Shown here: positions 24,190 through 51,800 of the stretch, piece by piece
Numbering within the stretch: the stretch's first letter is position 1
Layout of the letters: each line of letters begins with the position of its first letter
NCBI GenBank assembly: GCA_004154925.1
Contig: QJNS01000009.1
Location: 248,001-312,000, forward strand
Length of the DNA: 64,000 bases
Reading direction: 5' to 3'
Source: Monosporascus cannonballus
Taxonomy: Eukaryota; Ascomycota; Sordariomycetes; Xylariales
Position numbers and translations under genes: made by a program
Notes under the pieces: model-generated
Database searches by the model: none
Told to the model about the DNA's origin: nothing
The model's input: only the letters and a program-made list of their open reading frames with translations

Positions 24190-24700
24190 GCAATAACGAC
24201 GAGCACACCCTAATTAACGGTCGATTAATTGGTAGTATCGACCTTAAACCAGCCGGCCGAAAACGCGGTTTATATTAACGTAATAATTACCACGGCAACT
24301 TTTAAGTATTTTTATTTTTTTCGAAATACTTAAAGTTTTTTATCGTTTCCGTATTTTTAATATTACAATAAAATATTTCAATATTACGATAACGAAATAA
24401 TCGCCTTTATTTTTGCAAACGATTTTTTTCATCTAAAACTCTTCGGTACTTAATTTCGAAAAAAATCGAAAATATTACAAACACCGCTGTAAAAAATATG
24501 TCGCGTACATTTTAAGATTTCTCGAACGACTTTATATTCCGCATTTTTTATAACGAAATCAAAAAGGCATTTTAAAACCAAAAGAGGTAATATATTCCGA
24601 AAAAATCAAAATAGTAATACGGTTACGAAAACGAAATTTTTAATATAACTCGATAAAATAAATATAAAAAAAGGAAAATTATTTACCGGGATTAATAAAC
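24190..24700 (-). pseudogene. Antisense gene remnant of chromovirus 2
   Basis: Reading the minus strand near 24,394-24,310 gives RYRNIEIFYCNIKNTETI then KNFKYFEK. This aligns residue by residue with RYRGIEIFRRAIKGTEVI of chromovirus 4 and RYRDTEIFCYNIK of chromovirus 5. The frame then passes toward a C-terminal segment similar to AAVIVIMLT of chromovirus 4. Stops are RIP-type; the N-terminal Cys part is too eroded to define. Confidence 0.55.
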
Positions 24701-24744
24701 CGATAATTTAATTTTTACGAATAAAAATTCTAAAAAATAAATCG

Positions 24745-25140
24745 TATTATAATCTAACGGTCTTATCTTTTTTACAAATAATCGGGGCTACAAAAAAAGT
24801 TAAACCCAACTCAAATCAAGATATTACGTAATTAGCTTAAAGGTCTTAAGATATTAAGCACCTTAAACCCCTAAAACCAGCTGGAAAGCTTAAAAAGATG
24901 AAAAGTCTTAAGGGTTTAAACCGTTTAAATACCTTGAGCCAAAATAAAAATATATATGCTTTTTATTTCTATAATTTAAATAACTTTAGCTTATAATAAC
25001 ATATCGTTACTTAAAACGCTTTTGGTATTACCAAACGTAATACGTTACTGTATTTATTTCTTAAATTCTCATAATATTCCTGCTAATATAAACTCATACG
25101 ACTTAGGTTTAATAGTTGGTTAAACCGCCTAGCCGTCATA
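24745..25140 (+). repeat. Chromovirus 2 3' LTR
   Basis: 396 bp, the same length as the 397 bp LTRs at 49,672 and 56,682. Ends GCCGTCATA. Confidence 0.75.
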
Positions 25141-25615
25141 TTAAGTAATAGAGTAATTAATATTATTATTTAATATTTAACGATATTATTAAATAAAAGT
25201 TTATAATGAATAGCAACCAAATAATTTAATTAATTATTAAATATAAATTCTTTCCATCTATATTTATAATAATATTATAAGATTGTAAATAATAAATTTA
25301 TATTATAAACTAACATTGTTTAAATTATAATATCAAAAATCAATAATTCTTATATTTAATTTAAGATATTGAAAAAGCTTAACTTTTTAAATTTTTTGAG
25401 TTTCATAATCCTTTTATATAGCTTAACAGGTTTAAGGTGTTAAAGTTTTTAAAAGCCTTAAGCTTATTACGTAATTTTTTTATATCGGGTTTAGTCTTAT
25501 TTTGGTCCCGGCCGTCTTTTAAGCTCGCTAAGCCTATAGGGTTATAACATTACAAACCTTTATTATTTCTATTTAAATACAACAAATTTATATATTTATC
25601 ACGACTTATTAACTA
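25141..25615 (-). repeat. AT-rich, with a further LTR-like relic
   Basis: 25,141-25,210 resembles the internal start of the chromoviruses (ATATTATTAAATAAAAGTTT). 25,420-25,560 holds LTR-like words on the minus strand (GGTTTAGTCTTATTTTGGTC and CCTATAGGGTTATAACA). No gene. Confidence 0.45.
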
Positions 25616-25657
25616 ATGTGGGTGACCCACCTTTGGAGTGCACCCACCTTTGGAGAA
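25616..25657 (+). repeat. Left terminal inverted repeat
   Basis: GTGGGTGACCCACCTTTGGA followed by a second CCCACCTTTGGA. Matches the reverse complement of 34,241-34,282 with four G/A differences. Confidence 0.9.
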
Positions 25658-25734
25658 CACTCCCTGACCCCCAACAACACCACCCATGCATAAATTTATA
25701 CACAAAACGCCATATAAAACAATGTAATTAAATG

Positions 25735-27310
25735 TTATGAAGGATCGCGCATATGCTCTAATACAGTAAGCGCACTTTTCAATAGATCCTGCTTTTTTAA
25801 CGCCATTTAAGCCTTGTGATTCTTTACCAGTTTCGTCTGCTGTTACTTAGCTTCCCTTTGGGCCCGGTAAATATCTTCAATATTAACGTATGATTCGCCC
25901 GGCGAAAGCTTAACCCTTTTTTTTCGTTACTGGCTTTAATAATTCGTTTTCGTTACGGAAAAACTAATTTTCGAATTACAAAGCGGTAATAATTTTAACG
26001 TTTTAATTTAACGCTTTACTCGCTTTCCTTACGAACGCCCGATAATCGCATTTCGTATCGACGTCTTTAAATACGAAGTATTTAAACTGCTTCTTTAAGT
26101 CCTGGCTTTTTTTGGGTATAAAAAACGTTATTTTTTCGCGTAATTAATAAAAGCTTGTTTTTATCGAAATAACTGGCCTAGGAATATTTAACTCCGGATA
26201 GACCACCTTAAGATTTTTGATAATTTTATTTATATTTAACGGCCAAACCCTTACGTAACGGAAACCGCTATAAATATTTTTTTATATAATAACCTTATCG
26301 CGCGCGTAAGCGTACATATCGATAAAACGCTATTTTATCCGGGGCGCGGAAATATCGTAACTTTGCTACCTTTTCGTTCTTTAATAATATGCTATCTTTA
26401 ACGGGGAAAAAACGCCTATATTTAAAGGTTATAATACGTAAATGGAATACGGCGGCAAATAAATTAATATTACGTTATTAATCTTGCATTCGTATTAAAG
26501 CTGAACGGATTCGTACGTAACGTATTTATTTATTAAAAAGATTTTTCCGTCGGTTGCTTTCGGAAATTTTGTTTCTGGAAGATATACTTCGCGAAACTAT
26601 CGCAAAGCAATTCGGACGTTACTTTATCCCAAAAAAGACGAATTATATTTCCACCGGGGGATTATATCAGGAAATTATTATCTTTAAAGTATAATTCCGT
26701 TAAAAAAAATTATTAAAATTAACGTTTTGCTCGTTAAAATAATTATTTCGAAAATAAAAGCCCAATTTGTTTCTTTAAACGCCTTCAATTCGGCGTAACC
26801 TTTAAAAGCGTTACCCAAAACCTTCCTACTACGGGATTTATCTTTTTAAACGTTATGCTTATTTATATTCGTAATCCTTTTTAATTTAATCTTTTTCTTA
26901 CGGATAATACGTTTTAAGGCCTTATAATACCGCTAAAGGGTATTTTTCTAGGTATTTTTCGCCTTAAAAAAATCGAACTGCCTTTTAAGCTTCGTTATAA
27001 TATCAGGGTTTCGGTATATAAAGCCATTAACCCAATATTTCCCTAGGGGTTTTTCGTTCCTATAATTCTGCAGAACGACTTTAGCAAAACAACGGACCTA
27101 AACCTTGTTAGGAAGTTGTCCTGCATCTTCTTTTTCGCATATCCACTTTATTACGAAATTCTTATTATCCTTTAAAAGGCGTTAATAAGGTTTAAGGCCT
27201 TTTTGCATAATAAGACCGCCGTCCCGGCGTCTTCGGACCGTTATGGCAGAGGTACTCCAAGCCTCAGCTGCATCTTCAACCCTGGCACCCCCCCTTATTT
27301 CCTTAAATGA
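25735..27310 (-). pseudogene. Fot1/pogo-like transposase, main part
   Basis: Minus strand. Near 27,290-27,200: GGARVEDAAEAWSTSA. Next is a CENP-B-type helix-turn-helix near 27,080-26,960 (RCFAKVVLQ, PLGKYWVNGFIYRNPDI, LKRQFDFFKAKNT). The start of the catalytic domain follows near 26,870-26,750 (SRSRKVLGNAFKGYAELK, WAFIFEIIILTSKTL), where the first catalytic Asp region reads NKH instead of DE. The C-terminus ends LLKSALTVLEHMRDPS with TAA at 25,737-25,735. Several TAA/TAG codons replace Gln, and the joined length implies at least one indel. The first 11 or so codons lie across the inserted chromovirus at 34,140. Confidence 0.85.
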
Positions 27311-27315
27311 CTTAA

Positions 27316-27707
27316 TGTGACGAGCTATAAGGTTTAACCAACTATTAAACCTTAAGTTAACGGGTTTATGTTAGCAGGAGAATCGTAAGAATCTGAGCAA
27401 TAAATACAGTAACGTATTACATCTCTTAATACCGGAAATGCCTTATTGTAAACGATTAGTATTGATAAAAAATTTATTATAAGCTAAAGCTATTTAAATT
27501 ATGGAATTAATAAACGTATATATCCTTTTTTTTCTTAGCTTGATTATTCGTAATTACGCTGTTAATGGTAATTATGATTATTTGGGATTACCTTTGATTA
27601 TTAATGATTATTGGCTTGGTAGTGATCACCGTTACGTAACCCGGAAGGTGGCCCGTATGTTCCCTGCCTGACCGTTTCTTGAGGCCGGAGCCTGTCGGGT
27701 CGTAACA
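27316..27707 (-). repeat. Chromovirus 3 3' LTR (392 bp)
   Basis: Starts TGTGACGAGC and ends GTCGTAACA. Less mutated than the other copy, which starts TATAATAAG. Confidence 0.9.
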
Positions 27708-27782
27708 CGATTTCCCTTTTCCCAAAATCTTGCCCTTAAGATTTTCTTTTCTTTTTTTTCTTCGTTTGGTAAATATCCTTCT

Positions 27783-28415
27783 TTGTTTTTAATTATGTCG
27801 TTTTGCATTTTTAGAATTCGTCGCGTTTTCCGTTTTTTTACAGTTCGTCGTATTGATTTCGTAAAAGCCTTTAACGAATTTGATTACGAAATTATATTTT
27901 GCTTTTATTATTTTTCGAAAAACATAAAATATAAAATAATAAAAAACGTTTTAAGGTATAAGGAATATGTTAATCGAAGTCGATTTTATGATAATACCGG
28001 CGTACCCATTTTTCCCTTATAAAATATTTGTCGTAAATATTAATATTTAAAATGCGAAAAAGCGTTTGCCGAAAAATAATTATTAAAGTTTTAACGGCTT
28101 TATTTTGAAGTTTAACGTAAATATCAAAAAGAAATAAACGAAACTGTTTTTCGTTTTATTCGTTTGCGTAAGCAAAAGGCGTTAATTCGTTCGAAAGGCG
28201 TTATTATAATATAACGTAAGCTTTAATCGTTAAACGAATTAAAAAAATAAAAGTATCGGGAATAAAAATAGTTAAAAGTTGCCGTTATAGCTATTACGTT
28301 AACGTATATTGCGGCCGATTAGTTCGATATCCCGATTACCGATTAGTCGGCCGTTAATTAAGACGTACTTATCGTTATTAATAAAAGTTCTTTAATAAAC
28401 GTTAGGCGCTAATAA
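27783..28415 (+). pseudogene. Antisense gene of chromovirus 3
   Basis: Opposite to pol, one uninterrupted phase from 27,783 to TAA at 28,413-28,415 (about 210 codons), broken only by RIP-type stops. The first 79 codons are open and end in a segment with eroded Cys positions (NRSRFYDNTGVPIFP). Next come KCEKAFAEK and a coiled coil (RKYQKEINETVFRFIRLRKQK, SLNELKK.KYRE). The C-terminus has VAVIAITLTYIAAD, then VLIVINKSSLINVRR. Size, place and layout match the antisense gene of chromovirus 1. The end overlaps the region just after the chromodomain. Confidence 0.72.
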
Positions 28416-31400
28416 GATTTTTGACAGGTTTTTAGATATTTTCGGAATTTGGGTGTTTTTTTTATTTGATTAGGTACTGGGTAAGTCCGTTTTGTTTCCG
28501 TATGTCGAGGATTTTCTCCACCTTATATGCTTGTTCGTTTTCCATTTTTATATCATTTTATATCGTATGTACTTTGATTATATTTGCTGTTAACTCGAAT
28601 AAGGAAATATAAAAAATTAGATAGAATTTAACTTTTAGTGGAAATTCTAATTAATAATTATTTTCTGAGATTTTTTTGACGATTTTGTATAAATTAATAT
28701 ATTTAAAATCGAGTTTTTTGCTGGGTTTTTTTGTTTAAATATTTTTGGTAATAAAGAAAACAATTTCCCCCTTTTCGAAAATTAATTTTTTTAACCTTTT
28801 TTAATTATAGTACTTATTTATTTAATTCCGTACGAATTCCAATTTTATCTTTATTTCTTAGTACAGCTATTGTAATTATTTTAAGGTAAGAATTATTTTA
28901 ACATTAATTAAACCGTCGTTGGGTATTTTTTTATAAATTTTTGGCATAAAACCAAAATTTGCATTAGTAAATATTATTTTAATATTTTCATAATTATCAA
29001 TATTATAAGCTAATTATGCGATTAATAATTTCTTAACCTAGTTATTTTATTTGTAATTAATAGAATATCGCAAGTAAAGTTTTAAAGTTTAATTTATTCG
29101 CTTTATTTATTTACCTGTTTATAGTTTAAATATGTTAAATAATTTATAATTTAGGCCGATTTATGCCATAAAGCTTTATTAAAATTTAGATGCAAATATT
29201 GATCCTTTATTTAATATAATTTTTATTAATAATCCGTATATATTAAAAATATATTTAAAAACAATATATGCCAATTTTTCGGCGTTTATGTCCTTATAAT
29301 ATGGTAAAAAATAAAAGAATTTCGTAAATCGGTCGACGATTACGAAAATGCTATCGTAATATATTTCTGTAATTGAATTTTCTGATATAAAAAGTTTAAT
29401 AATAAAATCGAATATAATTAAATATTATGGTTGTTTTGCAATTAGTAATAGTTGTAACTTTCCGTATGGCTTATATTATCGAATTTTTGGTTTGGCGCAA
29501 ATATCGTATTGCCGTATAATTTTTTGTACTATTAATTTTATTTTAGGAAAGGAATATACGCGTTAAAGTTATTTTAAGGTTTTATAAATCCTTGGATATT
29601 TATATAATTGATATTTATGTACCTTTTATACTAAACTTTTTTGATATTTTTCTGGAATTTATATTTTGTCCGTTTTTTGGTTTTTTGGGAGATTATCGTT
29701 ATACTGTTAAATTTTTTAATGTATATTGCTAGGTATTGCCCGAATCGTCGCAATCTGTCGTAAGCGTAAATATTCTTTTATGGTGGTATTAAAGATTATA
29801 TAATTAATTTTAATTAACTTTTCTTTAAAGTTTAATTATTTGCTTAAAGTATTTATTTTACCGTTTTTTAATCCTTTTTTATAGATAATAACGAAGTCGA
29901 AGCTCGCCAATTTTTCTACGTAACGAAATTATCGTTCTGTAAGTTTTTTGGTTATGGTAAATCGGATAAGATTTTGATAATCCGTATAAATTTTGATCTG
30001 GTATAAATTTTCTTTTAGGAAGTGTCTAAATTTTCGAAATGCCATAATAATAGCTATAAATTCTTTATCTGAAATACCGTAATTAAGTTCGGCTCCTTTT
30101 AATTTGTACGAAAAGAATATAAAAAGGTGCAGTTTGTCTTAATTATTTCGTTATCCGATTATTACGTTTAACGCGTAATCCGAAATATCGGTTTTTAATT
30201 TAACGAAGCGGTTTAAATCGTATATAATTAGTATTAATTTGTTCGTAATTGTATTTTTAATATCCTAAAATGCTTTTTCCGTATTTAGCGTTTATTTGAA
30301 TTTTTTTTGTAAGATTTATTAAGGGAATAGTTATTTTGTTAAAGTTTCGAATAAACTTCCTGTAATAAATAGCGAATTTAAGGAATACCTGTATTTTTTT
30401 AAATTATCGTTAGCGTTTGTTATTTTATAATTATAACGATTTTCTTAAGGTTTATCTTAATATATTTTGGGGTAATAATATATCCTAAATATTTTATTTT
30501 TTATATAAGAAATTAACTTTTTTCTGCATTAATAAGTAACCTTGCATTTTATAAAACTTAAAAAACTTTATAAATATGTTTTGCGTATATTTCTTTTATT
30601 TTTTAAAAAATGCAAATATCGTTAAGATAATAAATAACGAAAATATCGAGGTATTTTCGTAATACGTAATTAATTATTCGTTGAAAAGTTATTAATACGT
30701 TCGTAAGTTCTATTGGTATAATTAAATACTTAAATAATCCGTATTTTGTTTTAAAAGTTATTTTCCATTTATATCCTTTTTTAATCTTGATAAAATTTTA
30801 TTTATTTTTAAGATCGAATGTTATAAATTATTTAATTTCGTAAAGTCGGTTTTTTATTTTTATGATTAGGGATAATAATATTCGATTCTAAATAGTAATA
30901 TCGTTTAATTATTAATAATTAATTATGACTCGTAATTTTTTATTTTTTTTTTAATATAAAGAATATCGAGTATTTTGTTAGTACTTTCGAAAATCGAATT
31001 CATTTTTTTTGTAACCGATTTTCCAGGTATTTTTTAAAAATGCGTAATTCGTTTCCGTTAAGATTATAAATGGGATAAAACTTTATCGAAAATCCTTTTT
31101 TGAAAATTATTTCGTAATTTTATTCGCTATATTCTGGTAATTTCGTATTAAGCTTTTTTTTAAAAAAACTATTTGTATTTGTAGTATTATAGTAACATAT
31201 TAATTAAATTTTTTGTTTTTTTAGGCGGTTATATTTATTATTTTAAATCGTTATTTAGTTATTTTAGTTTCGTTTTAATAATAATAACGATATGTCGTAT
31301 TTTTTTATAACCGTTTTTTTATATATTTTAATTTTTTGGGTGATAAGGTATTTATTTTATCTTTATATTTGTATTTGTTATTATTATCGATTAAGTATTA

Positions 31401-33500
31401 AGATTTTAATTTTTCTATTTTTTGTTTGTTAATAAAAAGTAAAACGAATTTTACTTGGCTAGTTTTACCGTTCATCAAAATTCCGTACTGGCGTATCTAT
31501 AGTAATCCTAAGATTATATCGTAATTCCTAAATGGAACGATATCGAAATGGACTATCTGGTATCGTCCTTAAATAAAAATCTCGAAATAATTAATTTCGC
31601 GTATAATTTTTCCGTTATCGTAAGCGAATTCTTAACTTTCGGTATTTGTCGTTATATAAGGTTTTAAGTTATATCTTCATAATAATCTAAATTTATTAAC
31701 TATATCCGGTATAATATAATTTCCGCCCAGAATTTTGCAATCCATTATTACGGTATACTAATACGTTTTAATTCGTATTTTCAAAATAATAAGGTCGTTA
31801 ACGTTTTTTATTATTGCGTTTAAAACCTTTTTTAGGAATTCTTTTTAATTCCTTTAGGTTTCGTTATTTTGTAACTTTTTTATAGGTAATTTTTTTCTTT
31901 TAATTCCTATTTAAATTTATCGAGCCTTACTTTTGCTTTTTCGTTTAACGCGTTAAGTTATTATATTTATTGTTGTTGTCGGCGTATTATTTTTTCGAAC
32001 CGTATTAATTATTCTTAATTTTTTGGCCATTCTTTTTCTTATTAAGTAAATTGTTTTCTTATATTTACGATTACATCTTATTATACGTCGTTTTTATTTT
32101 CGTTCCAGAGATCTTTTATAAATTAACGTATTTTTTTAATAATTTTTTTCCCTCAGGATTTATAATAAATATTAATTGAAAATAAAGATCCGTAATCGTT
32201 TTCTAGTAATACTTTTTAACCGTACGTTAAATTAATTTCTTTTTTATTTGGTAATTATATTATCCATAATAACAAAAGGGGTTTTCCTACGGGCATTATT
32301 TTTTTTAAGCTAACTTTTTGCTTCGGCCAATTATTGGATATTTCCTGGGGTTATGGTTCGAAACTGTCGATACCATTATTCGTTATTTTTATTATGCCCG
32401 GTACGGTTTGGAAAATCAAATCCCTTATAGTACATTCGGGTAATTCGTATATAAATATGTTATTTCCATTTTTCGTAATCGGGATATTCTCGTCGTCGAC
32501 AGTATATAATATGTATTTTACCGTATCGATTAAGTATTCCGGGGCAAAGTTCTTTTGTTTAATCCCGGTAGTCGTATAACTATTTTTATAATATTTCTTA
32601 TTATATTCGTAATACTTATTAAATTAATTTCTTAGCTTTTCGTATTTTTTGTGAAATCTCTTATCGTAATAATCCTTATTAGGCCTTTAGTTATAAATTT
32701 GTTATATATTTGGTTCGGATTTTGTTAATAACTTTGTTATCGTTTTTTTAATTATTCCTAAATTATCCTTTTAATACGGGGGTCCAATTATTTTATTATA
32801 ATTTTTTAGGTTTCTTATATTTATAAGCTTTATATCCCATTTTGCCGTAATTAAAGCACTTAATTTGGCTCCAATCTTATCTGTAGATAACGCCGAATTC
32901 CATAAGTTCTAACGCCGTTCCGTAAAAAATAAGGGGTACGTCTCTTTTTTTCCCCTAATTGGACTTATATCCCGAACGTAAAACATATTATCCTTTTTTT
33001 TCTATTGTTTTTCAAATTGTCGATTATCAATCTTAATTACCTTTATAAGATACCGGTCTAAGATAATTAATCGTTTGATCCGAATAATTTTATTTTTTAT
33101 ATTATCTTTTAATCCTTTATAAAATATATTAATAAAGGTATTAGTTTTATTATTTTCCCATCCGGCTTTAACCGTAAAACTTTTGAAAGTTACGGCATAT
33201 TTAAACGCGGATTCTTTTTGTCGGAATTACAAAAATTATTAAGCTATTAATTGTTTTTTATCCGGATTGCCGAAATTATTACGTATTTTATTTTTAAAAT
33301 TAGTATAAATTAAAAAGATTTTATTAATTAAATTTTTTTATTTACTTTTTTTATTTTTAAAAGATTTTTCATAATAAGCTTAAACCAATTAGCTGCATTT
33401 CTTATCAGATATATTTTTATTATTAAAATTATATCCGTTAAATTATTAAGATTTAAGAAACGAAAATAAATTCGTGCCTAAATTAAAAAGGTTTAAAGGT
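28416..33500 (-). pseudogene. Chromovirus 3 gag-pol remnant
   Basis: Chromodomain YKVEKILDIRKQNGLTQYLIK on the minus strand at about 28,550-28,485. RT YLNDICIFSK near 30,630-30,600 (first Asp of YLDD is Asn). Protease-like NYIIPDIVNKF near 31,710. Knuckle CFNYGKMGYKAYKYK near 32,850, where two Cys and the His are all Tyr, each one transition away. Dense TAA/TAG stops. Confidence 0.8.
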
Positions 33501-33717
33501 TACCTTTTTTATCGTAAGGTTCCGGTTTTTTAGGTTTTATACGGGCGAAAAAGGGTTGGGTAAGTGGCGTAACCCTAAGTTATTAAACTTTTTTTTCTAA
33601 TTCCCGAATTCGAGCCTAAAGCTGTTAAGTAAAGGTTTCCTAAATGCTAGTCAATATTCTAACAATATTAAATATTGCTTAAAGTTTAATGGTATTATTA
33701 AATAAAAGTTTATAACG

Positions 33718-34107
33718 TATAATAAGTTATAAAGTTTAACCAATTATTAAACTTTAAGTTAACGGGTTTATATTAACAAAAGTATTGTAAAAATCTGAGC
33801 AATAAATACAATAACGTATTACATTTTTTTAATACCGGAAATGCTTTATTGCAAACGATTAATATTAATAAATAATTTATTATAAATTAAAAAATTTTAA
33901 ATTATAACATTAATAAATATATATATTCTTTTTTTTGCCTTAATTATTCGTAATTACGCCGTTGGTAGTAATTACGATTACTTAGGATTACCTGTGATCA
34001 TTAATGATCATTGGCTTAGTAATGATCACCGTTACGTAACCCGGGAGGTGGCCCGTATGCTCCCTGCCTGACCGTTTCTTGAGGCCGGAACCTGTCGGGT
34101 CGTAACA
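33718..34107 (-). repeat. Chromovirus 3 5' LTR (390 bp)
   Basis: Ends GTCGTAACA at 34,107, next to the duplicated CTTAA. More mutated than the 3' copy. Confidence 0.88.
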
Positions 34108-34112
34108 CTTAA

Positions 34113-34140
34113 CAATAAGGTATTTATCGTCAGGGCCCAT
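34113..34140 (-). pseudogene. Transposase start codons cut off by chromovirus 3
   Basis: ATG at 34,140-34,138 followed by GPDDKYLIV. The frame continues, across one copy of the duplicated CTTAA, into SFKEIRGGARVED at 27,310. About 100 bp separate this ATG from the right inverted repeat. Confidence 0.7.
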
Positions 34141-34240
34141 TTTCAAGATCTGATACGAATTGCTTCAAAATTGCTTTAATTGTTGTTAAGTTACAGTATA
34201 TTGATAAAGAAGGTTTACATTCGCTAGTGGGGAAAATTCG

Positions 34241-34282
34241 TTTTTCAAAGGTGGGTGCATTCCAAAGGTGGGTCACCCACAC
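34241..34282 (-). repeat. Right terminal inverted repeat
   Basis: Reverse complement of the left repeat with four transitions; followed by TA at 34,283-34,284. Confidence 0.9.
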
Positions 34283-34284
34283 TA

Positions 34285-35030
34285 AATATTAATAAATTGA
34301 AAATAGGCCTTTTTAATTTATAAAAAATAAAATAATAACCCGTTATATAATTTAATTGAGTTAATTTTCTTTGCTATTTTTCATACAACCGTTTTTAAAG
34401 ACCGTAACTTACTAGGTTATAATAAGAATATTATGATTTTAATTAATTAAAATAAATATATTATACTAGTACTAAAAAAATCATTATATATGTTATATTT
34501 TTCTAGCAAACGTATCTTAAGTTATATTCGCGCGTTAATTACAACTATAATAATTAAAAATGTATTTATAATAAAAATATAAATTTTGCAAGATATATCT
34601 ATATATTATAATAAATTTGACCAGGTTTAAATATTAGAAAACAATCGGTTAATTACGATGTAACAAACGAATAAAAACATTATTTATTAAAAAAGTTGTT
34701 TTAGTTAAATATATATATTATTATAAAATAATTAAGCGAATAAAAATACTTATTACAACGTGGTAATAAATATATAAAATATAATTAACTTATAAATATT
34801 CTCTGCATTAGTTTTATTGTTATAAAATTTAAATAGTATATATTATTATAACAGTTTTTAAATTGTAAGTTTATTGTTATTTAAGTCGAAAACATATTAT
34901 ACTTGTCTTAATAACGCGGTTGCCTGACGTATAATCTTTAATTATAACTATTTATAAGCCTTTGGCTTTTAGGTAGGTAATTGTAGGCATTTTTTTTAAA
35001 AAAAAAATCCTCAGATTATTTACAAGTGAA
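34285..35030. other. AT-rich stretch, nothing recognised
   Basis: AT-rich up to a sharp change to balanced composition at about 35,030. No repeat terminus or coding signal found. Confidence 0.5.
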
Positions 35031-38105: not shown

Positions 38106-38224
38106 TTACCCGAAGGAAAGCTGCACTAGCGGGCCTCTCTCAAAGACTTCCACTGGGTCACTCTCTTCCCCAAGCTATCTTACACTCGCGTGTTCGTTTC
38201 CTCGATCTTTCTTGATGGTCCAAA

Positions 38225-39144
38225 ATGCCTCCCGCTCCGTCCTTTGACTACTACGCTGAGCTCCAGGTGGGGAGCACAGCAACCGCTGAGCAGCTTACGG
38301 CATCCTACCGCCGGTTGGCCCGTATCCACCACCCTGATAAGAATCCAGACAAGGCAGAGGAAGCAACCGCAGCCTTCCAGAAGGTACCTGGTCTCTCCAA
38401 CTTCCACCAATACACCATGTCCACTAACCTGTGTTGGTTGCCTCGTAGATCCAGGAGGCATATGAAGTCCTGGCCGACCCGGCCCAGCGTGCCCGCTATG
38501 ACGCGCGTTTCTCTTCCGCCCCACGGGCCTCCGCTCCCTTCGCGTCTGCAGGGTACACCGGTGGTAATGATACGGGCACCTTTTTCCGCTCACGCTATGA
38601 TCCTTTTGGCTTTGGAGACTTTCCCGGTTTCTTTGACTACGAGTTTTGGCGTGATGCCTTCCCGTTTCATACTGAACAAGGGCGCGAGAGACGTCCGGGG
38701 CAAGATCCTCTCGACGCTTTCTACCAGCGGGAGCGAGAGAGACGCCACGAGCGCGAGAAAGCCCGGGCAGAGGCTCTCGAGGCTCTCCTGGCAGCCCGAC
38801 GCGCGCGCAAGGAGGCCGAGGATGCGGCGAAGAGAGCTAAAGCCGACGCCAAGAAATCCGCAGAAGAGGCCAAGAATGAGGCGAGGGCCAGACGACAGAA
38901 GGAGGAGAGATCGGCCCAGGAGGCCATCTGGGAAAAGAAGAACGCTCGTACGAAGGATGAAAAGCTCCGGACCTGTCTGCATTCCGAATTCTGCGCCAAG
39001 GTGCCCCAGAAGCAAAAATTCAAATGCGGCTTCTGTAACACGAAGAGAGGCATAACTGCCTTTAAGTGTCCTCATTGCGATACACTCCTCTGCCAGCTGT
39101 GTCTGGTCTACTTTGCTAGGGAGCGGGACAGGGCGGAGAAATAG
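38225..39144 (+). CDS. J-domain protein with zinc ribbon
   Basis: Two exons, 38,225-38,383 and 38,449-39,144, 284 codons. J domain, residues 8-72: YYAELQVG, RLARIHHPDKNP with the HPD motif that stimulates Hsp70 ATPase, then IQEAYEVLADPAQRARYD after the intron. Next comes a Gly/Phe-rich part (RYDPFGFGDFPGFFDYEFW), a long Ala/Arg/Glu helix (residues about 145-225) and a zinc-ribbon-like Cys set (FKCGFCNTKRG, FKCPHCDTLLCQLC). It ends at TAG 39,142-39,144. The start ATG is the first one and opens directly into the J domain. Likely a cytosolic or nuclear Hsp70 cochaperone; the target is unknown. The same frame continues after the TAG into three zinc knuckles (next entry). Confidence 0.85.
38384..38448 (+). 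other. Intron inside the J domain
   Basis: 65 bp, GTACCTGG...CCTCGTAG, phase 0. Removing it joins AFQK to IQEAYEVL, the normal J-domain helix order. Confidence 0.85.
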
Positions 39145-40406: not shown

Positions 40407-41401
40407 TTAAAAAGCAACGCAATCCACGCCGACGGGTTCTGGAAATGGGGTGGTATAGGGCCTACGACGCACTTCGAGTCGGTGGGTTGCCATGGAGGTG
40501 GTTCACCATTGGTATGTACCGCGGTAGCTGTGGTGGACGTCGGATATACCTTGAAACGCCGAAAATTCGCCTGAGAAAATATGAATATCGATAGCAGGTA
40601 CAAGACTCTGTATGGGGGTGCCGTAATACATTACCGGTGCTTACGTGGTGCCCGTCATGATGACTCCGTAGTAGTAGATTGCCACGAGTCGAAAACCTTG
40701 ATAGATGGCGTAGATGTGGACGTGGTTGGCCATTGTTACATAGCGCGTTGGGAGTGCTGGCGTTGCTCTCAACTCTGTGCAGGTGACCGTCGCAGAGAAA
40801 TTCCGCAATGGGCTGTGTGATTCAGTGTTTCTGGAGTGATGCAAAAATGGTGTGCCTGGGAGGCCTGGACAAATGGAAGACACTGATGGAGTTTGTTTCT
40901 TTAATTACCCCCCGTAGGCCACAAGGGCGCGGAGGTCAAGCTATTCCCAGATTTCCTCCTCCACTATCTGTATTCATGTTTCCCCCAAATACCGGTGTAC
41001 GGTCTGAAAATTGCCTTGAAGCGTCGGGGTCCGCTTCCAGCCAATGGGGTTCAACATTTTCTTGACATGAGGGATCGGCGACGCCAACCCTGATCTCGAA
41101 GCCGATGGTGACGTATGATGAGATTCAGATCCGATCTTGCAGGTGTTAAATAGGGCGAGACACACATGAAAGGATGGAAGCAGATATCGTACTACGAGAT
41201 CAGCGTTTCCCGAAAGCCGACTATGCCCCCTTCTCAACGCTCCCCATAGTGTCTGCTGCTTCCACAGGCAATCTCCGTGTTGCCTCACGGACCTTGTCGC
41301 TATCCCGGATGGCCCCAAACCGGGCTCTTCACAGCTCACACCGCTCCGGACGCGGACCTTGGGTTCCGCGGTACTTCCGCCTGAGCCTGAACGCCTCCTT
41401 C
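40407..41401. other. No gene supported
   Basis: Overlapping frames on both strands (for example 40,974-41,429 minus, Arg/Ser-rich). I see no motif that favours any of them. Confidence 0.35.
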
Positions 41402-41700
41402 TTATCCAACTTCCGGAGCGGCTCCCCATTCGTCCTCATCCTCCCATTCGTCCTCATCCTCCCATTCGTCCTCACCCTCCCATTCGTCCTCCTCCTCCGC
41501 CTCCTCCTCGTTTATGTACAACCCTAATAGCCGAAACAAGGAGCAGCACAGGCCGTATCGCCTCGTCGGTCAGACACAGAGGTCGATGATGATTTCGACG
41601 AGTTTCCGATCCGATTTGGAAGACGAAGATGATATACGACAAAACTCGCACCCGATTTCGAAGGCGGGAGTGATAGGATGATCTCCACTGGCGGCCCTTC
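41402..41700 (-). pseudogene. Second fragment related to the window-start gene
   Basis: The minus-strand frame reads SDRKLVEIIIDL, a TGA (41,572-41,570), then LFRLLGLYINEEEAEEEDEW and an acidic repeat ending GAAPEVG at TAA 41,404-41,402. The gene at 1-507 has GRKLAND... and FFRLLELYIYDDEEEEG in the same order. The acidic tail is longer here because of an 18-bp tandem repeat. Confidence 0.5.
41425..41496. repeat. 18-bp minisatellite, four units
   Basis: Four units of CCCATTCGTCCTCATCCT (the last two slightly diverged). Read on the minus strand they encode EDEWED-type acidic repeats. Confidence 0.85.
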
Positions 41701-42200
41701 AATGGGTGGATACTGAAGCGAACTGCTTGCTATATAAAAGGGAAGAATCACCGAGATGTATGATTCAGTGCCGAAAGCGCTCAGAGTAATCAAGTGTCAG
41801 ACAGTGTATGGCCGTGTACTACGAGGCGATGCTCCTTCGAAGGCAGCGATTCAGGGCTGATGACTATGTGTATACGACGAGATTCAGACCCCACTCCGGA
41901 GGCCTCGGTAAGACGATACCTAGAGCGGTTGATTCCGAAGGCAAGGTGAGTCCATAGTGAATGGACAGTGGAGGCACGAATCCGGCACGCCTCCGTTGAT
42001 GAACAGAAGTGCGAATGCAACCAACGGCGGCAGAAAGGTGGTGATGGTATCGTGAAAGACTCATGATGGCTTTGTGAGTCGTTGCAATGCCTACACATGC
42101 GGAAGGCACTAGTGGGGAGAAAACTTGCAACAGAGACAGCGCCGACAGCCTCCTACACGTAGGCATTATATTTATGGACATGGCACGCAAAAAAGGCGTT
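41701..42200. other. Balanced-composition stretch, no gene supported
   Basis: Words similar to GA(T/C)GAGATTCAGA(T/C)CC recur at about 41,119 and 41,879. No clear frame. Confidence 0.35.
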
Positions 42201-43109
42201 TATGTAGGTGTGTAGATAACTCTTTTAATTCGGACAAAAGATTATTAAATTTAAATGACGTACTACATAACGAATGAATTAAACAAACATAGAAGCCGAT
42301 TATTAGCGTTGCGTAATATCTAATTTAAATTAATAAATTGCAACGAGGTGTATTATTCTAATTAGCCGCTCTTTTATTTGCTAAGTGTATATATAACTTT
42401 TTTTAAATACTAGAATTTTATTTAGATTGCTTTTATAAGCATTATAGTTTTATTTCTTTTTATTATTTTTTTGTTTAATTTATTTTGTGGTTATAAACTA
42501 CGATTTTTTCATGTTTCTTTTTTTTTAAAAAAAAAAGTGTTTTCATTTATTAAAACCTTTAAATTAAATTTCTCACAGTTTATTTTAAACATAACCTTTT
42601 TACGCGATCAAATAATTTCGGCTTAAAAAAAGCTTTCTTGAAAATATTCGAAAGTATTTTTTATTTAAAAAAAGATTTATCTTTTTTAAGCAATAAGCTA
42701 TTGAAATTGGTTTTTAAGTTTTTCTATAAATAGCATCTATAATATATTATGTTCTACGTATCTTAACAGCGTTAATAAAGAAGAAAAATAAAACTGGTAA
42801 AAGTAAATAAAAGAAAGATTTAATACATATGTAATTATAGAAAGTTAATTGATAAAAAGATATCAAACATCGAATAAAAAGGTTGAACGTTTACAAAGCT
42901 AGGATTTATAGTATTAAATAATACAAAATTTTGAAAATATAAAAATATTAGCAAAACTCTACTTTTCCTAATATAAATAACAACCGATTAAATAAAAATA
43001 TAAAACAAATAAAATAGTTATAAAGTAACAAAGAAAAAGATATTAAGTTTAATCGAAAAATTTAAATACTAAGTAATGCGAATTTTCTAAATATATTATA
43101 TTCCCACTA
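42201..43109. other. AT-rich stretch, nothing recognised
   Basis: Composition falls sharply at about 42,220. Stop-dense on both strands; no repeat terminus seen. Confidence 0.5.
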
Positions 43110-43452
43110 TATAACGGCTAAGGGGTTTAACCAACTATTAAACCTTAGTCGTATGGGTTTATATTGGCAGGAGTATTATAAGATTTTGAACAATAAATAC
43201 AGTAACGTATTACGTCTCGTAATACCAAAGGCGTTTTGGGTAACGAATTATTATTGTAAGCTAAAGTTATCTAAACTATAGAAATAACGAACATATATAT
43301 TTTCATTTCGGCTTAAAGTACTTAAACGGCTTAAGGTATTTAGTACCTTAAAACCTTTGAGCTGGTTACGTAACATTTTGGCGGCGGTCGGGTTTTGTCT
43401 TTTTCGTAAGTCCGACCGTTCGCAAAAAAATCAAGGCCGTTAGGTTATAATA
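43110..43452 (-). repeat. Chromovirus 4 3' LTR (343 bp, internal deletion)
   Basis: Lacks the segment between CTTAAACGGCTTAA and TAGTACCTTAAAA that is about 54 bp longer in the 49,672 copy. Confidence 0.85.
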
Positions 43453-43488
43453 CGATCTCCCCCTTTCCAGGATTTTTGTCCCTAAAAA

Positions 43489-43631
43489 TGTTACGGCCTG
43501 GTCACCCGTAATGTCTTCCAACATGTACGAGTACATATATAGAGCTGTAAGCACCAGGATGATTGTCATAATTGCGATCATTTCACCGATCTTTTGCCCT
43601 GGTGGCGTGATGGTATGGTGCAGCCATAACA
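43489..43631. mobile_element. Short solo-LTR-like insertion, not RIPped
   Basis: 143 bp starting TGTTACGGCCTGG and ending CAGCCATAACA, with inverted ends TGTTAYGGC and a TATATAGAGC box inside. Near-normal GC within AT-rich sequence. The flanking pentamers AAAAA and AAATA do not match exactly, so the insertion is inferred from ends and composition. Confidence 0.5.
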
Positions 43632-43639
43632 AAATATCA

Positions 43640-44248
43640 AATTATTATTTGCTGGTCCTAATACGTAATCCTTTTTTTTATATTCGTTATATCGGGTTGC
43701 GTAAAAATGTTTTATTTTCGTAAACATAACGTTTTTATTTTTTTAGAACGTATTAAATGTTTTGGTTTCAAAATATTTGTATTATTTTCGTTATAAAAAG
43801 AAAAATGCAAAATATAAGATTATTCGGGGTTCTTTAAAATGTACGCGTTATATCTATTACGGCAGTTCTTATAATACTTTCGGGTTTTCAAAAATTAAAT
43901 ATTAAAAATTTCTAGATAAAGAAAATCATTTGAAACATTAAAAGGAATAAGTTTGCAAAACGTTATGAACGGCTGCTAATACATTAAACTGTTTGCAAAA
44001 ACAAAGGCAGCTGCTCCGTTACCGTGGTATCGAGATATTTCGTCGAGCTATTAAAGGTACGGAGGTTATAGAAAAATTCGAACGCTTAAAAAAAACAACA
44101 ATAATTAAAGGCTGCCGTTATAGTTATTATGTTAACGTAAGCCGCGGCCAACTGGCCTAATATCCCGGTTACTAACTGGTTAACTATTAAGTAGAACGCG
44201 TCCGTTATTATTAATAAAAGTTCTTTAATAGGTGTTAGGCGCCAATAA
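43640..44248 (+). pseudogene. Antisense gene remnant of chromovirus 4
   Basis: Plus strand, opposite to pol. A Cys-containing part near 43,815-43,900 (KIIRGSLKCTRYIYYGSS, FGFSKIKY) is followed by a coiled coil with LNCLQKQRQLLRYRGIEIF at about 43,986-44,040 and RRAIKGTEVIEKFERLKK. After a phase change near 44,090 comes AAVIVIMLT, PNIPVTNW and NKSSLIGVRRQ with TAA at 44,246-44,248. The C-terminal end matches chromovirus 3 (NKSSLINVRR). Its 5' part was disturbed by the 143 bp insertion. Confidence 0.65.
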
Positions 44249-44259
44249 AGTTCTTAGCG

Positions 44260-47200
44260 AATTCCTAGGTATTTGCGAAATCCGAATACTTTTTTCCGCT
44301 TAATCAAATAATGAGTAAATCCGTTTTTTTTCGCATATCGAGGATTTTTTCCACCTTATATACGTATTCGTTTTTTACTTTTATATTGTTTTGTATTGCA
44401 TGTATTTTAATTATATCTGGTATTAAGTCGAATAAAAAAATAACAAAAATTAAATAAAATTTATTTTTTTTGTAAAAACTCCAATTAACAATTATTTCCT
44501 AAGATTCCTTCGGCGATTTAATATAAATCGATATACTTAAAATCAAATTTTTTATTCGATCGTTTTATTTAAATATTTTTGGTAACAAAAGATGTTATTT
44601 TTCTTTTTTCGAAAATTAGGTTTTTTAATTTTCTTGGTTTTAATACTTAGTTATTTAATTACGTACTAATTTTATTTTTATTTTTACTTTTTAATATAAC
44701 TTTCGTAATTATTTCGTTATAAGAATTATTTTAATATTAATTAAATTATAATCGCATATTTTTCTATAACTTTTTAAAATAAAATTAAAATTAACGTTCG
44801 CAGATATTATCTTAATATTTTCGTAATAACAGGTATTATAAGCCAGTTATACGATTAATAATTTTTTACCTTAGTTATTTTATTCGTAATTATTATAATA
44901 TTGTAAGTAAGTTTTTGAAGTTTAATTCGCTTGCTGTATTTATTTATCCGTTTAAAGTTTAAATACGTTAAATAATTTATGATTTGAGCCGATTTATATT
45001 ATAAGGCCTTGTCAAAATTTTGATCCAAATATCCATTTTAAATTTAAAATAATTTCAATTAATAATCCGTATATGCTGAATATATGTTAAAAATATATAT
45101 ATTATTTGTTCGTCGTTTGTATTCTTATAATATGGTAAAATATAAGAAAAATTTGTAAATTGATTAACGCTAACGAAAATACTATCGTAATATACTTTGG
45201 TAATTAAATTTCCTAATATAAGAAGCTTGGTAATAAAATCAAATATAATGAAATATTATAGTTGTTTTATAACTAGTAATAAATGTAATTTTCCGTATAG
45301 CTTATGTCGTCGAACCTTTATTTTAACGCAAATATCACATTATCGTATAATTTTGTATATTACTAAATTTATTTTAAAAAAATATGTACGTTAAAGCCGT
45401 TTTAAAATGTTATAAATCTTTGAATATCCGTATAACTGATATTCGTATATATTTTGTACTAAACCTTTTTAATATCTTTGGAGAATTAATATTTTATCCG
45501 TTCTTTTCTTTTTTAAAAGTCCGTTATTATACTATTATATTTTCTAATGTATATCAAAAGATATTACCCGAATTGTTGTAATTTATTACGGGCGTAAATA
45601 TCCTTTTATAATAATATCGAAAATTATATAACTAATTTTAATTAATCTTTTTTTTTTTCGAAATTTGGTTTCTTACTTAGGACGTTTGCTTTGTTATTTT
45701 TGATTTTTTTCTTATGGATAATCACGAAATCGAAGTTTGTCAATTTTTTCGCGTAACGAAATTATCGTTCGATAAATCTCTTAATCGTAATAAATTAAGT
45801 AAGAATTTAATAATCCGTATAAATATTAACCTAGTATAAATTTCCTTTTAGGAAATATTTAAATCTTCGGAATGCCATAATCATAATTATAAATTCTTTA
45901 TCTGGAATGTTATAATTAAGTATAGCTTTTTTTAATTTATATGAAAAAAATACAATAAGGTATAATGTGCCTTAATTACTTTATTATCCGATTATTACGT
46001 TTAACGCGTAATCCGAAATATCGGTTTTTAATTTAACGGAGCGGTTTAAATCGTACATAATTAATACTAGTTCGTTAATAATCGTATTGTTAATATCTTA
46101 AAATGTTTTTTTTTATATTTGGCGTTTATTTGAATTTTTTTTTCGTTAAGTTCGTTAAGGATATAATTATTTTCCTAAAATTCAGAAAAAACTTTCTATA
46201 ATAATTAACGAACCCAAGAAATGCCTATATTTTTTTAACTGTAATTGGCGTTTGTTATTTTATAATTATAAGGATTTTCTTAAGGCTTACCTTAACATGT
46301 CTTAAAGTAATAATATATTCCAAATATTCTATTTCTTATATATAAAAATAACTTTTTTTGGGTTAATAAATAACTTTATATTTTTTAAAGCTGAAAAAAC
46401 TTTATAAACGTATCTTATATATATTTTTTCCGTTTTGAAAACAATAAAAATATCGTTAAGATAACAAGCGACAAAAATATCGAGATATTTTATAATATAT
46501 AATTTTCCATCCGTTAAAAAGTTATTAATACGTTAATAAATCTTATTGGTATAATTAAATAAATAATCCGTATTTCGTCCTAAAAGCTATTTTTTTATTC
46601 GTATCTTTTTTTAATCTTAACAAGGTTATATTTATTTTTGAGATCGAATACGGTACATTATTTAGTTCCGTAAAATCGGGTTTTTATTCTTGTAATCAGA
46701 AATAATAATATCACTTAATTATTCATAATTAACCATAAGTTATAGTTTTTTGGGATAAAAGAATATAAGGTATCCTGCCGGTAACTTCGAAAGTCGAATT
46801 TATCTCTTTTATAATCCATTTTTCAGGTATTCCTTGAAAATATATAATTCGTTTCTGTTAAAATTGTAAATGAGGTAAAATTTTGTCGAAAATCCTTTTT
46901 AAAGATTATCTTATACTCCTATTCATTATATTCCGATAACTTCGTATTAAGCGTTTTTTAACAAGCTTTTCGTATTTATGGTATTATATTAACATATTAA
47001 TTAAATTGTTTTAACTTTTAGGTCTATTATTTTAGGTAGTTATTTAGTTGCTTTAATATCGGTCTAATAATAATAAGTATCCCTTTTATTTTTCTTTAGT
47101 CCTCATTTCTTTCTTATGTTTTATCCTTTTAGGTAATAAGGTTTTTATCGTATCCTTATGCCTGTATTCCTTGTTATTTTCGATCGAATATTAAGATCTT

Positions 47201-49400
47201 AATTTTCTTTTTTTTGTCTGTTAATAAGGTATAAAGCGAATTTTACCTAGCCAGTTCCTTCATTAATTAAAATTCCGTAGTAACGTATCCATAATAATCC
47301 TAAGATCATATCGTAATTCCTAAATACAACGATATCGAAATTAATTATTTAATATTATCCTTAGATAAAAATTTCCAAATAATTATTTTCGCGAATATTT
47401 TTCCTGTTATCGTAAACAAATTCCTAATTTTCGACATTCGTTATTATATACGGTTTTAACATATATTTTTATGGTAGTTTAAGTTCGTTAATTACATCCC
47501 GAATAATATAATTTCTGGGCAGAATTTCGTAATTTAATATTACGATATATTAATACGTTCCGATTCGTATATAAAAAATAATAAGATTATTAACGGCTTT
47601 TATGATCATTTAAAACCCTTTTTTAAAAATTTCCTTTAATTTCTTTAAGTTTTGTCATTTTATTGCTTTTTTATAAGTAACTTTTTTTCGTTTAACCTTT
47701 ATTTAAATTTATCGAACCTTCTTTATATTTATATATTTAACGTATTAAGCTATTATAGCTTTCGTTATTGTCGGCATATTATTTTTTCGAATTATAATAA
47801 TTATTTCTAGTTTTATTTTACTTTCTTTCATTATTAAACAAAAATTTTTATATTTTCGATTACATCTTATTATACGTCGTATTAATAATCGTTTTAAAGT
47901 TCTTTTATAAATTAATATATTCCTTCCTTAATAACCTCTTTTTCGTAATCATTTATAATAAATACTAATTAAAAATAAAAACTTATAATAATCATTTGGC
48001 AATATCTTGCTATTATATGCTGGATTAATTTCTTTTTTATTTAGTAATTATATTATTAATAATAACAAAAAGTGTTTTTTATAAATATTAGTTTTCTTCG
48101 AGCTAACGTTTTACTTCGGCCAATTATTAAATATCTTTCGGGATTATTTATCGAAAATATCGTTATTATTATTTATAATTCTTATTATTTCCAGTTTAAT
48201 TTAAAAAAAAGTAAAATCCTTGATAACATATATAAGTAATTCGTCCGTAAATATATTATTTTTATTTGTCGTAATCGGGATATACCTGTCGTCGACAATA
48301 TATAGCATATATTTTGCTATATCGATTAAAGGTTCCGGGACAAATTTCTTTTATTTAATCCTAATATTCGCTTAATTACTTTTAATACTTTTTATTATAT
48401 TTACCATATTTATTAAATTAGCCTCCTGTTTTTGGTATTCCTTATTGGACTTTGCGCTATAGGGGGCCTGCTACGTACTTAGGCCGAATCATATTAATGG
48501 GTTTATTTCCGTTTTTTTGATTTTTTGAGTCGTTTTTCGAGTATAGGTTTCCAGTTATCTTAACGAGATTTCCTAAATGCCTTATACCACAATACCTTAT
48601 GTCCTATCTTGTTACAATTAAAGCATTTGATTTAACTCCAGTTCTTCTTATAAATAGCTCCTAATTCCATAGATCTTAATTCCGTGCCGTAAAAAGTAAA
48701 ATTTTATCGAAAAATATTAATCTTAGCCGTATATTAGAATTTGTTATTATTTTTTCTTCTAGTACCTTTAATATGCTAAACGTAATCCCGATTATGGATC
48801 TTAACTATCATTGCAATATAATCCGATAAATAATTAGGTTGATTAAATTTAAAAGATTATTTTTATACTTCCTTATTTAGATTTTTAAAAAATATAATTA
48901 TAAATATTTTTTATTTCTAATTTAATTTAAATATTAACTAAACCAACGTATTACCGTAATTAAATATTAATCGGTTGTATTATAATTACTAGATCTATAT
49001 TTCAGCTTTTACTTTTTATGTATTATTTCGAAAACTTTTATTAATATTTGCTTAAAATATTTACAATTATTATAAATTCGTATTATTTCCGGGTGTCGAT
49101 TTTCGATTAACAAAATAACGTATTTTCTTTATAACGGGTTTGAATTAAATATCCGTATTTCTGGTAAATCGTTTAATTACGAATTTTATTCGTATAATAA
49201 GCGTAATTAATCAAATAAGAAAATACTCGAAATATGTTCGGCATTAAATTAAAAACAATTATAACTTAGTTAAGGTTTTGTCGAAAAATTCTGGCTTAAA
49301 AACTTAGGGACGTTTTCGGGTTATTTAGTAAAATTTAACTAAATAACCTGGCTCGCTTAAAAGGGTTTTTTAATTTCGAAAGTCTTTTTTCTCTTAAGCT
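44260..49400 (-). pseudogene. Chromovirus 4 gag-pol remnant
   Basis: Chromodomain YKVEKILDMRKKTDL on the minus strand at 44,375-44,330. RT CYLNDIFIVFKT near 46,480-46,440. Knuckle CFNCNKIGHKVLWYK near 48,633-48,590, with the last Cys now Tyr. Many TAA/TAG stops. Confidence 0.8.
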
Positions 49401-49671
49401 TTTTATAAGCGGCTTAAAGGGACGTTATAAGGTCATTATTATTTTTCTCAAGCTGAATAATGCGTTCGTTTATAACATCCAGGCGTCAAAGAACTTTTTC
49501 GCGAAAAAAGCAAGGTTTTTTCCTTTGCCTCTTCGGATTTTATTCTAATATCCGGGTTATCAAAAACCTGGTGGATAGGTTATTCGGGCTGTTTGCTAAT
49601 AAATATAATAAATTTAATATTAATAATATTATTCAAAATTTAACGGTATTATTAAATAAAAACATATAACG

Positions 49672-50068
49672 TATAACGGCTAAAAGATTTAACCAATTAT
49701 TAAAACTTAATTATACGAATTTATATTAACAAAAATATCGTAAGATTTTAAATATTAAATTTATATAAGGTATTATATCTTGTAATATTAAAAATGTTTT
49801 AAGTAACGAATTATTATTACAAATTAAAATTATTTAAATTATGGAAATAACGAACGTATATATCCTTATTCTGGTTTAAGGTACTTAAACGGCTTAAACC
49901 CTTAAGCCTATTAAGCCTTTTAAGCTCCTTTGCCGGCTTAAGGGGCTTAAAATGCTTAGCACCTTAAAATCTTTGAGCTAATTACATAATATCTTGGCGG
50001 CGGTCGGGTTTTGTCTTTTTCGTAGGCCCGACCGTCTGCAAAGAAATCAAGCCCGTTAGGTTATAACA
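49672..50068 (-). repeat. Chromovirus 4 5' LTR (397 bp)
   Basis: Contains the full CTTAAG-rich core (49,885-49,960) and ends CGTTAGGTTATAACA. Confidence 0.87.
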
Positions 50069-50630
50069 AAATAACGATTGATAAAAATATAATTAAATCA
50101 AGTAATATAGATTATATTAAGTTTATTAACTAACATATCTGTATTAACAATATTAAATGAAAATATATTTTCAAATTCCGTTTAATCATTATAGTCTAAT
50201 ATGCGAAAAGCTAGAAACAGTATAACAATGAAATATTAAATATTTTCAATTTGAACAGAATGTTAATCAATATAAGTTAGTTAAATATAATCCGTTCGAT
50301 TATATTTCATAAGTAGTCGAATAATAATTATACATTTAGTGATATTAGTTAATATATAAATAAGTTTATTACTTCTGTATAATTAAAATGATATTAGGTT
50401 GTAAAATTAAATTTAAATACGTAATACTTTTATTATTATTAGATATAATTAATTATTTTATTACCCAGCTTTTTATTAAGTATTCGCTTATATAACACTG
50501 GGCGATTAAAATTTAATAATTAATCAAATTTTTTATCGTTATACGTTATAAACTTTTATATAATAGTACCGTAAGAAGTTAAGTAAAACCTCGGATATTA
50601 TATTTATTAATAAATAAACTAAAACCATAT
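50069..50630 (+). repeat. AT-rich, with a plus-strand LTR end relic
   Basis: 50,500-50,625 matches the end of the chromovirus 2 5' LTR and its internal start (CGTTATACGTTATAA, ATTATATTTATTAATAAATAA). So a further plus-strand copy lay here and chromovirus 5 inserted into it at 50,630. Nothing seen in 50,069-50,490. Confidence 0.5.
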
Positions 50631-50756
50631 TTAACGATTAAGCGGTTTAATTAAGTATTGAACCTAAGTCGTACGAGTTTATGTTAGCAGAAATATCGTA
50701 AGATATTGAGCAATAAACATAATAACTTTATTACGTTTTATAATACCAAAGGTATT

Positions 50757-50951
50757 TGTAAGAATACAGCTCCTATGGGGCTGCGGCTGGTGTCCGACCA
50801 GCCACAGACCCACGCGCCAGTACAAATAACCATCTGGCAGCTAGTAAGAAACGCTAGACGGAAATAACCTAATACACTTACTTCTTGGAATACGCTCTGC
50901 GACTGGTCGGAGATCACCTCACCTCAGCTCACAGCTGTTCATCATCTTACA
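50757..50951. mobile_element. 195 bp solo LTR, unmutated, inside chromovirus 5 LTR
   Basis: Starts TGTAAGAATACAG, ends CATCATCTTACA, and is flanked by the perfect duplication GTATT (50,752-50,756 and 50,952-50,956). Removing it and one GTATT restores the family LTR to 398 bp. It is GC-rich in an otherwise AT-rich region and so has escaped RIP. Ends with TG...CA and a 5 bp duplication point to a solo LTR of a short-LTR retrotransposon; no relative is seen in this window. Confidence 0.9.
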
Positions 50952-51239
50952 GTATTTTGGGTAACGAATTATTATTATAAGCTAAGCTTATTTAAGTTTT
51001 GAAAATAATAAATATATATATGTTATTTTTAGCTTAAAGTATTTAAAAGATTTAATTTTTTTAAAAATTCTTTTAAAATTATGTAATATTTTTATATAGC
51101 TTAATAAGCGTAATGTATTAAGGTTTTTAAAAACCTTAAATCTTTTACGTAATTTTCCTTATATTGGGTTTAGTTTTATTTTTATCTCGACCCTTTTTTG
51201 GACCTGTTAAGCTTATCGGGTTATAATACGATTTCTTTC

Positions 51240-51800
51240 TATTTAGAATTTTTATTTCGAATGTTTTGTAAATGTTTTTCTTTTTTTATTTTATTATGTT
51301 TAATCGTATTGAGCAGCTTCGTTTTCATAAATATATCAACGCCTTTCTTAATTCGAAGCAAAGTTCTTTTAGATTTTAATATTTTCTTTTTGGGTTTTTT
51401 CCTAAAAAGAATATGTAAATTATAAAGCTTTTCGGCATATCAAAAAGTATATAAGGTGTGTTCTTTACGGCAATTTTATATTCTTTTCGGACCGTCCGAA
51501 ACTGAATATAAAAAATGTTTCAATAAAAAAGATTGGTTAAAACGTAATAAAATATAAGTTTAAAAAAGTTGTATATTAATACTAATAAATTAAATTAATT
51601 TTACAAGTACTGACGGTTTTTTCGTTATCGCGATACGGAAATATTTTGTTATAATATTAAAAGTCCCGTAGTCATAAAAAAGTTCGAAAGTTTTAAGCGA
51701 AAATAAAAATAGTTAACAGCTGAAATAACCCTTTTGATATCCGTTACGGTTATTATTAACTAGGTTAACGTAAATGCTATCAATTAGTTAATTATTAATA
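51240..51800 (+). pseudogene. Antisense gene remnant of chromovirus 5
   Basis: The plus-strand frame at 51,198-51,425 continues after a stop into SAYQKVYKVCSLRQFYILFG, then SETEYKKCFNKKDWLKRNK (about 51,435-51,550). In another phase at 51,617-51,700 it reads RFFRYRDTEIFCYNIK and VIKKFESFKRK. These align with chromovirus 4 (FGFSKIKY, LLRYRGIEIF, VIEKFERLKK). Opposite strand and same position relative to the 3' LTR as in the other copies. Confidence 0.55.

Follow-up and report, generated by a model that had tools for sequence, protein, structure and literature searches.

The window analysed here, a 64-kb stretch of the Monosporascus cannonballus genome, contains five chromovirus copies (E1 to E5), and an antisense gene or its remains was located in each of them. 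In E1, the gene (family 1) extends over 8618..9265 on the reverse strand. Its remains were identified at 24272..24653 in E2 (reverse strand, with matches in three frames), 27828..28361 in E3 (forward strand, third family), 43696..44190 in E4 (forward strand, family 2, the frame changing close to the 3′ end), and 51299..51802 in E5 (forward strand, matched again in a different frame at 51309-51572). A six-cysteine module is encoded at 9062..9157 in E1 (reverse strand), where the first Cys position is occupied by Tyr, and at 27900..27989 in E3 and 43783..43872 in E4 (both forward strand), where the spacing is CX2CX6CX8CX2CX6C and five positions are occupied by Tyr.

The sequence-only reading of the window had taken these five places for copies of one antisense gene, which was confirmed using profiles built from copies elsewhere in the genome (88.8 Mb searched). 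For family 1, 30 copies (E1 and 29 others) were taken out of at least 172 genome matches, and for family 2, 50 copies (E4 and 49 others) out of at least 150; the window's own copies, E1 and E4, were left out of the profiles. Every place was matched, at 32–340 bits: E1 at 8621-9271 (reverse strand, 339.8 bits), E4 at 43696-44190 (forward strand, 205.9 bits, with additional weak matches at either end in other frames), E2 at 24453-24653 and 24272-24646 (reverse strand, 44.4 and 42.0 bits), E5 at 51299-51802 (forward strand, 44.2 bits), and E3 at 27828-28361 (forward strand, 31.9 bits). The top scores in 30 dinucleotide-shuffled windows were 0.9 bits for the family 1 profile and 2.1 bits for the family 2 profile. 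E3 was assigned to a third family because its N-terminal part was 54% identical over 76 residues to L086 (L-numbers denote loci from the same genome). The window copies are broken, with in-frame stops in E1, three frames in E2, and two in E5; in E3, which had been described as keeping one phase for 210 codons, one frame with stops was seen over 178 codons (27828-28361). Stop-free antisense frames occur in genome copies, and that of L085 (220 codons) covers nearly the whole profile. The start-codon site of E1 (9265-9263) reads ATA, and the same column in 28 family 1 copies reads ATG in 9, ATA in 18, and TTA in 1. The E1 gene ends with TAA at 8620-8618, and this codon is TAA in all 28 copies. 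As the stop codon column is occupied by Gln in L085 and in four Monosporascus protein relatives (P0001, P0002, P0005, and P0006), the gene may originally have ended 10 codons further on, near 8588.

The antisense gene lies mostly between the end of pol, which encodes the chromodomain, and the 3′ long terminal repeat (LTR), and just its 3′ tail overlaps pol in a tail-to-tail manner (110 nt in E1, with the gene end taken as 8618, and 146 nt in L085). The earlier placement of the gene opposite pol was therefore correct for its last 100-150 nt only. Approximately 100 nt separate the 3′ LTR from the antisense start site in E1 and from the antisense ATG (in a CACCATG context) in L006, where the LTR end was set by eye from its TG...CA ends. 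When 129 family 1 matches were compared with 150 listed reverse transcriptase (RT) matches, 41 had a listed RT in range, and the antisense gene was downstream of it on the opposite strand in 40 of these, at a distance of 2,147-4,115 nt (median 2,180 nt; 39 of the 40 at 2,147-2,337 nt). For family 2, the first 72 RT rows included at least one RT/antisense pair arranged in the same way (2,221 nt). Of 20 strong RT loci with no listed partner, six were sampled, and the profile detected the antisense gene in five of them (L083, L085, L086, L087, and L088). The antisense gene is present in several subfamilies and occupies a fixed place. The motifs reported to be shared among copies are present in the translations; RYRxxEIFxxxIK, being outside pol, is good evidence, whereas NKSSLIxVRR belongs to the tail overlapping the chromodomain end, where pol alone could conserve it, and was dropped as independent evidence.

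The elements are AT-rich, and their sequence changes resemble repeat-induced point mutation (RIP). Because RIP makes transitions only, purine/pyrimidine differences (transversions) were used for counting by codon position, and the mean pairwise difference was calculated for 28 family 1 copies, leaving out two frame-shifted copies. The values for antisense codon positions 1, 2, and 3 were 0.064, 0.036, and 0.137 (Mann-Whitney p=1.2e-10). Past the gene end, the same antisense-frame positions gave 0.024, 0.048, and 0.017 (p=4.6e-10), the peak being the third position of pol itself, and the LTR side was flat (0.034, 0.033, and 0.033). The ratio of positions 1+2 to position 3 was approximately 0.37 for the antisense gene and 0.43 for pol, indicating similar constraint in the two. 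The short N-terminal stretch alone showed the same direction, with p=0.058, not below 0.05, and the bias in family 2 (49 loci; 0.029, 0.023, and 0.064; p=0.0086) was weaker than that in family 1. Of the 183 stops in family 1, 169 fell in just 29 columns of the 213, those in which Gln or Trp occurs in another copy. The antisense gene codes for a protein, which purifying selection maintained during the active life of the elements. Selection across subfamilies, as put forward in the sequence-only reading, is supported by the RIP-proof excess of third-position transversions, the stop positions, and the cysteine columns, and the similarity of the antisense frames is not a mere reflection of DNA similarity but is concentrated in the protein, as judged from the transversion excess and the stop columns. 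Counting transversions by codon position is a RIP-proof test that can be used for other doubtful genes in RIPped elements. We also observed that third positions in family 1 vary approximately threefold more in the antisense gene (0.137) than in pol (0.048), a pattern that could be produced by homogenisation of pol or by exchange of the antisense gene between lineages.

Alternatively, the similarity of the antisense frames might be a by-product: it could follow from similar DNA in the copies, from pol on the opposite strand, or from a sense-strand gene. In favour of this, part of pol is overlapped by the NKSSLIxVRR tail, and codon phase alone cannot separate the strands, as the wobble position of the antisense frame is also that of one sense frame. 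However, the third-position transversion excess is seen in the region not shared with pol, and the phase changes where the two meet; for that region, the by-product explanation is refuted in family 1. In the 28 copies, TGA stops number 51 in the wobble-sharing sense frame versus 2 in the antisense frame, which rules out a sense-strand gene, and chance or carry-over from DNA is ruled out by the shuffled windows, the third-position transversions, and the stop columns. The family is also represented by independent gene models in Monosporascus, and we regard the by-product explanation as extremely improbable. An explanation in which the antisense transcript matters and not the protein, for example through control of the sense RNA by an antisense RNA, is slightly less remote but still improbable: the geometry permits an antisense RNA over the end of pol, but the codon-position bias, the Gln/Trp stop columns, and the Cys columns reflect selection on the protein.

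The protein comprises approximately 190-220 residues, in which a basic N-terminus is followed by the six-cysteine module, then by a long coiled coil, and finally by a C-terminal tail that is conserved. Across copies, the spacing of the module is CX2CX6-7CX8CX2CX6-7C, and the consensus of PF00172 (Zn_clus in Pfam) is CX2CX6CX5-12CX2CX6-8C. The exact Zn2Cys6 spacing was found in P0009 and L083 and likewise in E3, E4, L086, and L088 with Tyr at some positions; the L085 module has Tyr at two positions. A PDB sequence search listed GAL4 third (E 1.1), after two unrelated chains, and a mixed profile search returned chance-like matches only. The fold matches of the P0009 structure model, though weak, were mostly Zn2Cys6 regulators, and the long helix was the most confident part of the model. 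In Pfam scans of whole antisense proteins, no family scored above its cut-off. As no whole protein tried exceeded the Zn_clus cut-off, we refer to the module as Zn2Cys6-like and do not file it as a member of the family. The cysteine spacing and, weakly, the predicted fold support a Zn2Cys6-like module, and the predicted order of parts corresponds to that of Gal4-type regulators.

We consider it probable that this is an accessory antisense gene of chromoviruses, kept by selection, whose protein combines the Zn2Cys6-like module with the coiled coil and regulates transcription of the element. The antisense transcript would arise from a promoter in or beside the 3′ LTR, and the protein would dimerise via its coiled coil, bind DNA via the cysteine module, and regulate element transcription, probably through the U3 region of its own LTR. 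Among the roles suggested by the sequence-only reading, a regulator of expression appears to fit best, judging from the module and the coiled coil, and packaging and anti-silencing factors found no support here. An array in the LTR of L006 provides a lead: at 1195-1246 (oriented, U3), three GATCTG are followed by three CAGATC at 9-bp steps, first direct and then inverted, and the 6-mer count (count only, not spacing) was reached in 4 of 500 shuffles. A decayed version of this array was found in the E1 LTR (9477-9530 of the window), and related, decayed versions occur in other family 1 copies. The family 2 LTRs (L062 and L067) contain a different motif, GCTTAA/TTAAGC, partly at 9-bp steps. As a tentative extension that seems possible although somewhat doubtful, each family may possess a private regulator-operator pair, in which a Gal4-type protein expressed antisense from the 3′ LTR would act on a 9-bp phased U3 array and form a sense/antisense feedback loop.

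Several observations weigh against the regulatory reading. In family 1 (E1), two loops of the module are one residue longer, the first having 7 residues and not 6, and a seventh Cys is present. Against Zn_clus, the whole P0009 protein scored 19.6 bits (gathering score 21), and the match of P0009, whether whole or as a 53-residue cut (24.4 bits), was made up of two half stretches and not one. Zn_clus was not listed in the Pfam scans of E1, L005, L006, L083, L085, L086, and L088. The fold matches were obtained at a pTM (predicted template modelling score) of 0.35, and the first AlphaFold model, based on an alignment that included RIPped rows with Cys-to-Tyr changes, left the cysteine region unfolded. 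In the RT comparison, one of the 41 family 1 matches (C57:400089-400682) was on the same strand as the nearest RT match, at the usual distance, and one of the six sampled RT loci (L084) had no antisense profile match at the expected distance. The 6-mer count was not above that of the shuffles in L004 (family 1) or in L062 and L067 (family 2). The gene could also be real and selected with a protein acting outside transcription; it might, for example, serve as a chaperone of nucleic acids, associate with Gag or integrase inside the particle, or take part in integration or targeting. Such a role would agree with the rejection of every whole protein tried by the Zn_clus model and with the long helix being modelled more confidently than any other part; however, the spacing and predicted fold favour Zn2Cys6 DNA binders, and gag already has its own zinc knuckle, and we regard a role outside transcription as unlikely, though far from negligible.

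Antisense accessory genes are already described for retroviruses and plant Retand-type elements. The nearest known kind is the antisense open reading frames of the plant Ty3-gypsy elements Retand, Grande, and RIRE2, which, in the passages of PMC11963269 that deal with them, occur in most copies and in different species and are situated between pol and the 3′ LTR; they are predicted to bind DNA, and their role is given there as unknown, with a regulatory role proposed by the author. The same passages describe Retand-type elements as non-chromoviruses with a POL-3′LTR region of 2.9-6.6 kb and a TRP28 domain. The antisense orientation and the place between pol and the 3′ LTR are common to both, whereas the present gene belongs to fungal chromoviruses, is approximately 650 nt long, and encodes the predicted Zn2Cys6-like module and coiled coil. 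The two differ in host group, in the lineage of the element, and in the domain, and we therefore treat the present gene as a variant of that kind. TRP28 (PF04195) was not listed in the Pfam scans of E1, L005, L006, L083, L085, L086, and L088, nor in those of P0003, P0005, P0006, and P0009. HBZ of HTLV-1 (human T-cell leukaemia virus type 1) is a bZIP protein acting as a nuclear regulator; it is likewise the product of an antisense gene of a retroelement, but our Pfam scans listed no bZIP family, and no homology between the two was apparent. HBZ and other retroviral antisense genes are also mentioned in PMC11963269. The protein resembles the fungal Zn(2)-Cys(6) regulators Gal4, Hap1, Pho7, and Put3 (PF00172) in its Cys spacing, in the succession of module, linker, and coiled coil, and in weak sequence and fold matches; unlike them, it is encoded by a retrotransposon, is short, and scores below the Pfam cut-off, with the longer loops and seventh Cys in family 1. 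No fungal case of such an antisense gene was recognised among the papers listed by searches of the open-access text of PubMed Central (PMC), and the word antisense is absent from the main text of a survey of fungal LTR elements (PMC3248453). A selected antisense gene with a Zn2Cys6-like module in fungal chromoviruses would represent the same solution with a different DNA-binding module, and it predicts a transcription regulator encoded by the element.

The relatives P0001-P0009 are the hypothetical proteins DL763-DL771 of Monosporascus, which belong to the same family (E 3e-26 to 2e-65) and are named only as hypothetical proteins; the antisense gene accounts for this set in the Monosporascus gene lists. 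Eight of the nine gene models begin downstream of the cysteine module. Relatives were found in Monosporascus only, among candidates chosen by shared words (at most 7,996 in one search), so that distant relatives can be missed. Similar hypothetical proteins may exist in other ascomycetes.

E1 is bounded by LTRs at 2491-2923 (5′) and 9367-9799 (forward strand, 3′), which are 89% identical in a self-comparison of the window, and contains gag with a CCHC knuckle (3185..4330, forward strand, from Pfam) and the end of pol with a piece of the chromodomain (8551..8727, forward strand, Chromo E 5.8e-4, under the cut-off). Gag with its zinc knuckle, RT, RNase H, integrase, SH3_Tf2-1, and the chromodomain were all found in broken pieces; Retrotrans_gag, zf-CCHC, RVT_1, RT_RNaseH_2, and SH3_Tf2-1 were above the Pfam cut-off, and the broken pieces of rve (20.6 vs. 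32.6 bits) and Chromo (20.2 vs. 25.1 bits) were under it. With gag, RT, RNase H, integrase, and a chromodomain between LTRs, E1 is a chromovirus (Ty3/gypsy). The LTRs of E3 (27323-27708 and 33725-34108) are 86% identical, and E2, E3, E4, and E5 share long alignments in the same self-comparison. Scanned with Rfam at its gathering threshold, the window gave no match. A direct repeat of 163 bp (1814-1976 and 14823-14985, 99% identical, 13 kb apart) flanks E1 together with its neighbour and might represent one end of a younger element. Between the RIPped elements, GC-rich islands at 16663-17439 and 38216-39052 encode a tyrosinase domain and a DnaJ domain.
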